From Engraulis encrasicolus (Eukaryota; Chordata; Actinopteri; Clupeiformes; Engraulidae), in the NCBI RefSeq assembly GCF_034702125.1, contig NC_085875.1:50753926-50817925 (forward strand): a stretch of 64,000 nt of DNA, given 5' to 3'. The notes below the pieces were generated by a model, which made no database searches, was not told the DNA's origin, and saw only the letters and a program-made list of their open reading frames with translations. Shown one piece after another: positions 27,336 to 34,835 of the stretch; the first letter of the stretch is position 1, and each line of letters begins with the position of its first letter. The translations under genes and the position numbers were made by a program.

Positions 27336-28986
27336 TTTCTACCATGAAGACTCGAGAGGCAATTGAACGTTATTAACATTTATTGAACAATAGACATGAT
27401 ACAAAAATGCATGAATCCGTTTGGCGAACAATTTACACTTGATATACAATGCATGAATCTGTTTGGCGAAGGTTCCCGTCTTCGCGTTGAACTCCAGGGT
27501 AGGACGGCATATCCTCCAGCGGAGATGGAGGCGGGCGTAGCCTGCCCCCTAACAGACGGGAACCACTGGTGACGGTGGACGGAGGGGTGGTGGTGGCTTC
27601 AAAGTCGGCTTAACTGGAAAGCAGAGATCAGAATGAGTGACTGATTTTTAAACAAACGTGAATGCGATCCATTGGCTGAGAGGGAACGATGCCTGAGTGA
27701 TGTGTAACGGGGAAATCCCCAATCTCGCGTTGTGATTGGTTGACGATCCTGGGCAATGATGACGCATGTATGATCTGTCAAAAGGGAGATTGGATGGTTA
27801 GCCTAGTAAGTTTGACAGCCGAGAAATTCGAGTCTCCCTGGTAGAATTTACGCAAGCTCCCATTTCTACCATGAAGACTCGAGAGGCAATTGAACGTTAT
27901 TAACATTTATTGAACAATAGACATGATACAAAAATGCATGAATCCGTTTGGCGAACAATTTACACTTGATATACAATGCATGAATCTGTTTGGCGAAGGT
28001 TCCCGTCTTCGCGTTGAACTCCAGGGTAGGACGGCATATCCTCCAGCGGAGATGGAGGCGGGCGTAGCCTGCCCCAAAAATAGAGATTAGAAGTGAACTC
28101 ACCTACAGCTTACAAGGAGACACCATCTGAAAGACATGAAAAGTTAGTTAGATGATTGATTGATAGACGGAAAATGAAGGACGATAGGTGATGATGATGA
28201 TGATGATGATGATGATGATAATGATGACAATGATGACAATGATGACAATGATGACAATGATGACAATGATGATGGGTGATAGGTGATAGGTGATAGGTTG
28301 GAAGACGAATGATGATAGATTAAATGAGATTATAAATGATAGGGATGTTCTGAGGCTTAAGCTATGGGCGGCAGTCTAGCCGAGGCATGAAGCCTGTGAT
28401 GATGGTGATGATGATAATGTCGGTATCTTTGGCTATGCAAGAAGACACGGCGCGGATGCGCTGAGAACAGAGACAGCACGGCGGTAGGTTATGCTTGAGA
28501 GATGCACCTTGGGCAGGAGAGCGCTGTGAACTTAGATTGTGACGGGAGTAGGTGGAGAGCCAGAACCGTGACCTTGGTCAGGAGAAGTGGAGGCTTAAGC
28601 TATGGGCGGCGGCCCGGCAGAGGCTGGAGCCCTGTGATGATGACTATGAAGATGATGATGATGATGCTATGTTAACGGGCGATGGCGCAGATGCTCTGAG
28701 AGCAGAGAGGCAGTAGAGCGTTATGATTTGATTGATAGATGCACCTTGGTCAGGAGAGCGCTGAAAACTTAGATTATGACAGTAGGTAGGGAGCCGGAAT
28801 CGTGACCTAAGGGAGAGAGTAGAACATGGTGATGAATGAGTAAATGAATGAATGGATGAATGAATGAACGTAGGCTATAATATAATGTAATATGGTATGA
28901 TAGTTGACATCACGGATAAACAACCACTGCAACTAGCCAGGCTGGTTCGATGTTACAAAATATGGAGATAACAGGCTTACGGACCA

Positions 28987-29586
28987 CTATAAAATCAATC
29001 TGATAGATGAGAGAAGGATAGAATACAGACATGACCGGGTGACCGGAGCGATAGCCCCCCAAGAGATAGAGTGAATGCCGCCGACGCAGCAAAATACCAC
29101 CGTCACCAGAAATGAGAATAGAAAACATAAAGATACAGACCAGATATAGCATGCTTCAATTACGTGATGAGGAGTGAGGCAAATGCAGGAAGCGCATGCG
29201 CCAGACGACCAACGACCCAGCGCCTTGATCGCAGTAGGGGACAGACCCCGCTTAGTGGCCGTGGTGGCCACGCCGATTCTGAACGAGCGTGCTGTATACC
29301 TCTTGGGCGAGGAATGAGAAGAAGGAAACAGAGTTAACAGAACAGAAACAGCACACTGAGCAAGATGACAAAGCGAGGAATGAGCCGAATGCAACACGCA
29401 CATGCGTCGGACAACCGGCAGCCCATTGCCTTGAAAGCCCGCACTATGCGGGCGTCTGCCAGAGTGATGAGAGAGACAGCTTGAGACAAAGCATGAGTAG
29501 CTAACATTAAAGACAAGCACCTCGGCCAGGATAAGCAGGAAGGTCAGGTTAAAACAGAGGAGAATCGGCAGACAACTGGTAATCAC
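28987..29586 (-). pseudogene. Tyrosine recombinase C-terminal remnant, duplicated
   Basis: The frame contains ARSFRIGVATTATKRGLSP then IKALGRWSSGACASC, the box-II signature of DIRS/Ngaro recombinases. Two catalytic residues are changed: the histidine of the HxxR motif is Arg, and the nucleophilic tyrosine expected after GRWSS is Cys. A second, more diverged copy of the same tail lies just 5' on the minus strand (about 29,370-29,480, in another frame). The protein would be inactive. N-terminal recombinase motifs are not seen. Confidence 0.7.
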
Positions 29587-30224
29587 GACCTAAGAGAGGG
29601 AGATAGCAGAGCTTGTAGCTGAAACAAACAATGAATAAAACACCAAGAAAACATCTCGACCAAGGAAATAATAACCCCATGTCAATTATGATAAACACCT
29701 ACGCGGTGTGGCGCGGTGAATGCTTGTGCAAAGCAGGCATTGACACAGGCAGTGGGGCGGATGCCCTGGTTGGTTGAGAGAGACAACTTGCGGTAACTGC
29801 ATGATTAGACTAGCAATAAAAAAAAAAAAGGGGGGCACCTTAATCAGGAGAATGCAGAAAGTGCGAGCTTACGACAGAGGAGAGTTGGAGAGCCGGTTAT
29901 CGAGACCTGAGAGGGACAGAGCAGAAAGCTGAAACATCACTGAATAACGGTTCCGGAACAAAAATGGCATATCAAAATAGACATAAACTCCTACTCGCTA
30001 CCAGTGGGTAGCTGTGATAAGTTTGTCATGCAGGATGGATGAGGATACCGATACAAGCAGGTGACTGGCGCTAAAGTTGGGGCGACAGCCCAGTGCGATG
30101 CTGAGGCGATGGCCCATTGTGATGCCGAGTTGTGATTTTGAGCCGTGGTGTTGAGCCGTGGTGTTGAGGTGAGACAGCCCAGGGCAATGCTGAGGTGCGC
30201 CGTTAAAGCACGAGCCCTGAGGCG

Positions 30225-32808: not shown

Positions 32809-32989
32809 CTTCAAAGTCGGCTTAACTGGAAAGCAGAGATCAGAATGAGTGACTGATTTTTAAACAAACGTGAATGCGATCCATTGGCTGAGAGGGAACG
32901 ATGCCTGAGTGATGTGTAACGGGGAAATCCCCAATCTCGCGTTGTGATTGGTTGACGATCCTGGGCAATGATGACGCATGTATGATCTG

Positions 32990-34835
32990 TCAAAAGGGAG
33001 ATTGGATGGTTAGCCTAGTAAGTTTGACAGCCGAGAAATTCGAGTCTCCCTGGTAGAATTTACGCAAGCTCCCATTTCTCTTTTTGGATTTGGGCCTCTT
33101 TGGCTTCTTGGCTGCAGCTTTCTTGGGTGCTGCAACGGTGTCAACATTCTTGCGTTTTTTGGGTGCTGCAACGGTTGCAACATTCTTGGGCTTTTTGGGT
33201 GCTGCAGCCTTCTTGGGTTTTTTGGGTGTATGATTCTTGGGCTGTTTGGGTGCTGCAGGATTTTTCACTTTTGCTTTTTTGGGCTTGTTGGTTATTGCGG
33301 TCTTCAGCGCTGGTACCGTCTTGGGCTTCTTGGCTGCTGCAGTCTCAGGTGCTACTGCTGTCTTGGGTTTCTTTGGTGCTGCTGCCATCTTCGGCTGGTT
33401 GGCTGTTGCAGGCTGCCAAGTACTGCAGTCAGGCACTGGTGTCTCCATGGGTTGGTTGGCTGCCTTCTTAGGCTTCTTGGCTTTTGAGGGCTTCCCCCCT
33501 GATGCCGTTCTGGGACGCTTGGTACTTGGCTTAGTACCTTCGTAAATGACGCACAAAAATAAATGTTATAAAATTGGAATAAAATTATATATTACTTTAC
33601 TGAAGAGATGCAAAATGAGTTGAACCTTTATATTTCATGGAGCTAAAGGATACTAGAGCATATAATGTGATTATAAAGAATTTACCTTTGGGTTTTTCAT
33701 TTGACTTTGGGGGAGCATGGAGGACGCTGTTATTGTTTATCACAGTAGATGGACAACTCCATGCTCCAGAAGGAACCGGAGGTGGATTGTTTACTACAAA
33801 CACTGACTGGGTCTGGGTCTGGGACTGGGTCTGGGTCTGGGTATGGTTTTTGTTTTGATTCTGAGGCTGAGTCTGGTTCTGGGACTGATTCTGGGTTTGG
33901 TTCATGGTCTGGTTCTTGGGCTCAGTCTGACTCTTGCTCTGGGGCTGAGACTGAGGCTGGATGTGAGGCTGACCATTCACAGCAACTAGAGGGAAGATTA
34001 GAGAAACATTTTACACACCACAGCAACATTTTAATGTTATGCATTTTTTGTAAAGAAATCTTTAAAAGTACATTTGCAATACAATTCAGTTATATTATCA
34101 GGGGACCTTGTGAAGGTGGGGTCTACTGTAAAGGTGGCTGAGGTGGCCGCCTTCAATATACTGTAGGCCAAAAGTGTAGGGGGAAATCCTGGTGTTTGTT
34201 CATAGTATGGCCCTTGGAGGACTTGGTCCCCACAATACAGTAGGCCTATATCTAAGTGTCAAATACAGTGGTATTTGGGGGCATTTACAATGAAAATATT
34301 TCCATTATTTTGGTTAATGCTACTGCTAGTGGACTGGGACACCCACTAACTCCATGAGAGAGAGAGAGAGAGAGAGAGAGAGAGAGAGAGAGAGAGAGAG
34401 AGAGAGAGAGAGAGAGAGAGAGAGAGAGAGAGAGAGAGAGAGAGAGAGAGAGAGAGAGAGAGAGAGAGAGAGAGAGATCAGATAGTAGTATACTAGTATA
34501 CAAAAGATGAAATTAATCAGTTTATCTCATGCTACTGTAAAACACATAGGGGCCTACAGTATACCTACATCTTTTCAGACGACTCTCCAAACGCTCGGCC
34601 AATTCACTGTGCTTTATCCTCTTTAGGATGTCCAGCATAGTGGTTGCAGCATCTGACTTGAAGTGCTTCAACATCAACTTAACAGTCTCAGCTACTGTAT
34701 GTCAGCCTGCTCCAATTTTCCCCACGACATTATTTTCAGGTCACCCAGACAGTGTCTGAAGTGCTTGAAGTCATCATTGGAGAGGTCATCCAGAGTTTCT
34801 CTCAGCAATTCAGGGATTCCATCCTCAGTCTCCAT
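32990..34835 (-). pseudogene. PYD gene E: pyrin domain plus Gln/Asn-rich and Lys/Pro/Ala-rich exons
   Basis: Exon 1 (34,569-34,835) is the PYD, exon 2 is 33,686-33,985 and exon 3 starts at 33,537. All junctions are phase 1 with good GT-AG sites, so the exons belong together. Exon 2 encodes repeated QxQ/NQT words (NGQPHIQPQSQPQ...) and a Pro-rich stretch. Exon 3 is highly basic, with KKPKK and AAPKKPK repeats like a histone H1 tail, suggesting nuclear or nucleic-acid binding (inference). Two breaks: a 5-bp TACTGTA-type insertion at 34,693-34,699 makes exon 1 267 instead of 262 nt, with TAG directly after ..EQADIQ. The retrotransposon at 33,079 replaces the native end (..KSKKRK stop) with about 20 foreign residues ending at 32,990. 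Exons 2 and 3 remain open. Confidence 0.65.
34355..34478. repeat. (GA)n microsatellite in gene E intron 1
   Basis: 124-bp GA run in the same position as the array beside copy D; intron sequence on both sides is homologous between D and E. Confidence 0.95.

Follow-up and report, generated by a model that had tools for sequence, protein, structure and literature searches.

A young, probably non-autonomous split-direct-repeat element at the stop codon of a gene copy with a pyrin domain in the anchovy Engraulis encrasicolus

How does a mobile sequence come to lie exactly at the stop codon of a gene, and how could it have moved there if it appears to encode no enzymes of its own? These questions are raised by a stretch of 64,000 nucleotides from the anchovy Engraulis encrasicolus (assembly GCF_034702125.1, contig NC_085875.1, positions 50,753,926 to 50,817,925), which is called the window here and whose own numbering is used throughout. 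At 27336..33079 it contains an element with split direct repeats (SDR) that interrupts the end of a gene with a pyrin domain (PYD), designated gene E. We read it, with a probability of about 0.8, as a young, probably non-autonomous SDR retrotransposon of the tyrosine recombinase (YR) or DIRS order, with its sense direction on the minus strand, that was integrated in gene E by a match between a short core word and the target. An original prediction, made by a model from the sequence alone, had already described a Ngaro/PAT-type element at this place.

Repeat structure of the element

Comparison of repeats over the whole element gives the minus-strand order A1, interior, B1, A2, spacer, B2:

27336..33079, minus strand: whole SDR element, 5744 bp with one core counted at each end
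32809..33079, minus strand: repeat A1, 5' end of the element, the same as A2 in 271/271 bp
28076..32808, minus strand: interior of about 4.7 kb, covered by the open reading frame (ORF) and Pfam scan
27863..28075, minus strand: repeat B1, the same as B2 in 213/213 bp
27906..27911, minus strand: AATAAA within B1
27597..27867, minus strand: repeat A2, sharing a 5-bp core with B1
27549..27596, minus strand: 48-bp spacer between A2 and B2, delimited by repeat alignment
27336..27548, minus strand: repeat B2, 3' end of the element, delimited by repeat alignment
27379..27384, minus strand: AATAAA within B2, starting 49 nt short of the element end

The 5' end is thus formed by A1 and the 3' end by B1-A2-B2, and the two copies of each repeat are identical. 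The original prediction had named the order A1-internal-B1-A2-B2, without the 48-bp spacer, and had proposed the alignment of A1 with A2 and of B1 with B2 as a check; the order holds on the minus strand and the copies are indeed related, being alike throughout their 271 and 213 bp, while the adjoining bases differ beyond the repeat limits. No difference was found in 479 repeat positions, which corresponds to a divergence of at most 0.62% (95% upper bound). The insertion is therefore young, unless gene conversion has kept the repeat copies alike. The ratio of observed to expected CpG is 0.885 in the element versus 0.483 in the window.

The core word and the mode of integration

One 5-bp word, TTTCT on the plus strand and AGAAA on the minus strand, occurs at three sites, exactly where the original prediction had seen it (start of A1, B1/A2 junction and end of B2):

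33075..33079, minus strand: core AGAAA, boundary with the basic exon of gene E
27863..27867, minus strand: core AGAAA, internal B1/A2 junction
27336..27340, minus strand: core AGAAA, boundary with the native stop codon and 3' flank

The overlap of B1 and A2 comprises exactly these 5 bases, the same word as at both outer ends, and in a simulation of blunt joining an overlap of at least 5 bases arose in 0.64% of draws. There is no separate target duplication, and the junction word is common to the element and a native target that we infer from the flanks and that is backed by the protein of a paralogue (see below). The simplest reading is that the core at the B-A junction of a circular form recombined with the identical word in the target. 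A comparable route is proposed for DIRS-type elements (PMC3266345, PMC5941688); for the DIRS1-like ones it involves a circle that agrees with the target in its junction word and leaves no target duplication (PMC3266345).

Identical bases at both ends could also be the 5-bp target-site duplication of an integrase or a DDE transposase, with the repeats as rearranged terminal repeats of an element resembling a long terminal repeat retrotransposon or of a DNA element. A length of 5 bp is usual for duplications made by such enzymes. But the word recurs at the internal B1/A2 junction, where its neighbours are again these element sequences, and this alternative can explain that only by chance; since the internal word belongs to the element itself, it speaks against a duplicated target. 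The layout moreover agrees with that of published SDR elements (PMC8547959), and we regard a target-site duplication as improbable.

Still less credible is that the arrangement was created during assembly by collapse or duplication of a repeat. Assembly can certainly produce perfect identity between repeat copies, but a known element class has just this layout, one core word is common to the boundaries, and the only three undetermined bases of the window are far away (8188, 8997 and 9014).

The target gene and its native end

Gene E is read on the minus strand in three exons, the last of which runs into the element:

34569..34835, minus strand: PYD exon, with a 5-bp insertion at about 34695-34699 and TAG after 47 codons
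33686..33985, minus strand: exon rich in glutamine, asparagine and proline, from the splice reading and the match to protein P0002
33080..33537, minus strand: basic exon, native part up to the element, from the splice reading and the match to P0002
27332..27334, minus strand: native stop codon TAG, now past the element, from the joined flanks and the C-terminus of P0002, which ends alike
27225..27230, minus strand: probable native poly(A) signal AATAAA

The introns, read by eye, have GT and AG ends and matching phases. When the flanks are joined through one AGAAA, the reading frame continues to ..KPKRPKSKKRK and then to the stop codon TAG, and AATAAA begins 104 nt after the start of that codon; the original prediction, which gave ..KKRK, TAG and a signal about 105 bp on, was accurate here. 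Among AGAAA sites outside the element, a stop in the same codon together with AATAAA within 150 nt is found at 0/78 on the minus strand and 2/109 on the plus strand. Of all minus-strand positions 10.6% have a stop within the first two codons, and 1.6% have such a stop plus AATAAA within 150 nt. Given this background the frame and the poly(A) signal are by themselves suggestive of a native gene end, not proof of it.

Independent support at the protein level is provided by a paralogue. In a search with the gene E protein (E <= 0.001) P0002 was the sole match among the matches listed (7992 candidates scored), with an E-value of 9.4e-143. This protein of 353 aa is annotated as "proteoglycan 4-like [Engraulis encrasicolus]", has a precomputed pyrin domain and shares the three-part build of gene E. 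Its C-terminus, ..AAAKKPKGPKSTKRK, reads ..KPKGPKSTKRK, so that 9 of the last 11 residues equal the predicted native tail of gene E and the end point is the same. Because its residues 1-87 are identical to the PYD exon at 1849-1589 of the window, P0002 is most likely the product of that neighbouring gene, whose remaining exons would lie to the left of the window, and most likely represents an element-free paralogue of gene E. The predicted position of the native stop codon is thus supported at the protein level, by the C-terminus of the paralogue P0002.

When the window was searched for an empty site, the similarity between part of the left flank and its duplicate proved to stop at 27120, short of the element; nor has the basic exon of gene E a second copy within the window. 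The local duplication concerned (18270-20466 and 24970-27120) is piecewise 90-100% identical and ends on its right side about 215 bp before the element.

State of gene E and effect of the insertion

From the basic exon the frame runs on into A1, where 28 residues follow ..KKR before a TGA at 32992-32990; the original prediction had estimated about 20 foreign residues. It had also proposed that the element swapped the native stop codon and 3' untranslated region for a foreign tail. The displacement of the stop codon is supported, and the change to a working protein is weakened by the state of the first exon. The PYD exon of gene E contains 5 extra bases (about 34695-34699) which shift the frame and lead to an in-frame TAG after 47 codons, and because of this lesion, unless it is an assembly error, gene E is probably a pseudogene. 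As the first exon is not intact, translation from the normal start would probably not produce the 28-residue tail. As the gene looks broken, the effect of the insertion on a protein is probably slight.

It might be supposed instead that gene E is alive and yields a working fusion protein that now ends in the A1-derived residues, as the frame stays open for 28 codons into A1, the second and third exons are open and their splice sites match in phase. This is, however, very unlikely in our opinion. The disrupting 5 bp are absent from all of the other PYD exons of the window that were aligned (3/3), no product of gene E itself is among the matches listed (1 match, 7992 candidates scored), and the next AATAAA on the sense strand is about 2 kb beyond the new stop codon.

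Coding capacity of the interior

The Pfam scan covered 32 ORFs of at least 60 aa wholly inside the interior and one more that straddles A1. An autonomous Ngaro element would have ORFs for reverse transcriptase (RT), RNase H and gag, and an autonomous PAT element a methyltransferase-like domain beside RT and YR; neither set was found in interior ORFs of at least 60 aa, and no methyltransferase-like domain, the PAT feature, scored above the Pfam cut-off. Instead of an encoded tyrosine recombinase there is only a short degraded tail:

29152..29286, minus strand: YR C-terminal-like remnant (SFRIGVATT..ALGRWSS), weak, with one database relative

This stretch, SFRIGVATTATKRGLSPTAIKALGRWSS, runs from 29286 downwards on the minus strand, and we take it to resemble the C-terminal part of eukaryotic YRs. 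Its one relative, P0001 (135 aa), is 55% identical to it (E 3.8e-3; 1/1 candidate for residues 96-145 of the YR-like ORF, E up to 10). P0001 itself has no family label; its comparison with Pfam yielded nothing above a cut-off and that with PDB nothing at E up to 1. A second, more degraded YR-like copy is present around 29310-29434, about 205 bp away, and when the two pieces alone were compared with Pfam and NCBIfam at E up to 10, no recombinase was found. Since there is no match to RT, RNase H, gag or a recombinase and only this degraded YR-like tail, the copy is probably non-autonomous and unable to make enzymes of its own. Its movement would then have needed help in trans, and to such mobilisation the perfect repeats of an element without own enzymes also point.

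Much of the interior is filled by diverged duplicated units (28352-28808, 29108-29434, 29517-29926 and 32023-32404; 65-76% identical in pairs), one pair of which contains the YR-like stretch. Two adjacent arrays of 24-bp units (30219-30475, 10.7 copies; 30479-30694, 9.0 copies) are open in several frames on both strands. A nested element of 372 bp (31142-31513), bounded by TTAA and with terminal inverted repeats that match imperfectly (TTAAAAGGTACACTGTG and TTAAAGGGACACTGTG), is 84% identical over 237 bp to 58055-58279; it resembles a piggyBac-type miniature inverted-repeat transposable element.

Relation to known elements

Ngaro elements have the published layout A1-[ORFs]-B1A2B2 (PMC8547959) and the group is known in teleosts, e.g., zebrafish and medaka (PMC4746887). 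The anchovy element has the same arrangement of split direct repeats around its interior, but none of the proteins encoded by autonomous Ngaro (gag, RT/RNase H and YR) was found intact in it. PAT-like elements likewise show the split direct repeats A1-B1-A2-B2 (PMC4157794). PAT counts among the DIRS group, whose members encode a methyltransferase-like domain; no such domain was found in the anchovy element. SIRE, a truncated non-autonomous derivative of VIPER in trypanosomes, consists of A2 and B2 separated by some 30 bp exclusive to it (PMC6681497). That stretch resembles the 48-bp spacer described here, yet SIRE is without A1, interior and B1, while the anchovy element retains the complete repeat set. 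The likeness to DIRS1-like elements concerns the proposed circle with a target-matching junction word and the lack of target duplication (PMC3266345); these elements differ by inverted terminal repeats and a 3-bp junction, in contrast with direct repeats and a 5-bp word.

The layout is therefore that of Ngaro, PAT and VIPER-like elements, and because the copy is without RT or full YR it cannot be placed in any one of them. Of the predicted Ngaro/PAT type, the SDR anatomy is retained; Ngaro rather than PAT is not established, as the scan yielded neither RT, RNase H or methyltransferase nor a complete recombinase by which to classify it. We file the copy as a new non-autonomous derivative of the known SDR-type YR retrotransposons. 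A literature search, which was not exhaustive, brought up no additional reports of non-autonomous SDR elements in fish, and the available part of the main text of the anchovy genome paper (PMC13403563) contains no mention of DIRS, Ngaro, pyrin, pycard or inflammasome.

Proposed route of mobilisation

From the repeats and the AATAAA observed in B we infer RNA ends, a circle and an enzyme as follows. An RNA cleaved 10-30 nt past the AATAAA of B2 would lose the end of B2 together with the core. The internal B1-A2 junction, which carries the missing B end joined to the start of A, could restore both ends during reverse transcription, so the position of the poly(A) signal in B would make such a junction necessary. 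The resulting circle would carry the core at its B-A junction, and an intact relative could provide in trans the recombinase for its exchange with the AGAAA that spans the last two codons of gene E. Recombination of core with target would leave no separate target duplication, displace the native stop codon and poly(A) signal by 5.74 kb and place the 28-residue frame after ..KKR. Recombination between the two B-A junctions of the circle might also free A-spacer-B pieces of about 530 bp; isolated AB repeats have been reported for Ngaro of a flagellate (PMC8547959).

Several observations weigh against the interpretation as a trans-mobilised YR retrotransposon. The 32 interior ORFs of at least 60 aa contain no Pfam family match to RT, RNase H, gag or recombinase; the search with the whole YR-like ORF returned 0/256 candidates at E <= 0.001, and the likeness of the stretch itself is weak, with P0001 (E 3.8e-3) as its sole relative. 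Coding sequence demonstrates neither the order nor a helper in trans. One ORF on the plus strand of the 24-bp repeats scores above the Pfam threshold for Fibrinogen_BP (53.3 vs 50 bits), most likely a low-complexity match due to its repetitive make-up. Further sense-strand signals inside the element (AATAAA at 31009 and ATTAAA at 30953) have to be considered, and the one at 31009 could end the element RNA early and so break the proposed cycle. Finally, the element was seen in this one copy only. Exact-pattern searches gave 0 matches for the joined flanks and for the B1/A2 junction in viral_contigs and for the B end in genome_contigs, and no match in E. coli genomes; none of these collections was built from fish and a miss means little.

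We consider the chance that a coding-dead SDR element has been mobilised in trans in a vertebrate to be slightly better than even. If so, the repeats A1, B1-A2 and B2 with the 48-bp spacer and the 5-bp core would approximate the full set of requirements in cis, and the interior would be free to take up tandem repeats and other transposons. End restoration and site choice in SDR elements have been deduced mostly from element structure, and according to a paper of 2018 the insertion mechanisms proposed for the related DIRS1 elements still await experimental demonstration (PMC5941688). With untouched repeats, a threefold core, the poly(A) signal in B and a target supported by a paralogue, the core-match model becomes checkable at one well-marked locus. 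This is a single insertion and, though the stop-codon site is unusually well marked, nothing here indicates a preference for stop codons.

The surrounding exon array

Gene E belongs to a tandem array on the minus strand, of which it is a variant with a glutamine-rich exon and a basic exon. PYD exons are found at 1583-1849, 23545-23811, 34564-34835 (gene E) and 44410-44673, and CARD exons at 13915-14181, 22716-22982 and 43485-43748. Six intact ORFs of the array were confirmed as PYRIN or CARD by Pfam, and the array looks like a series of copies of an ASC-type adaptor gene.

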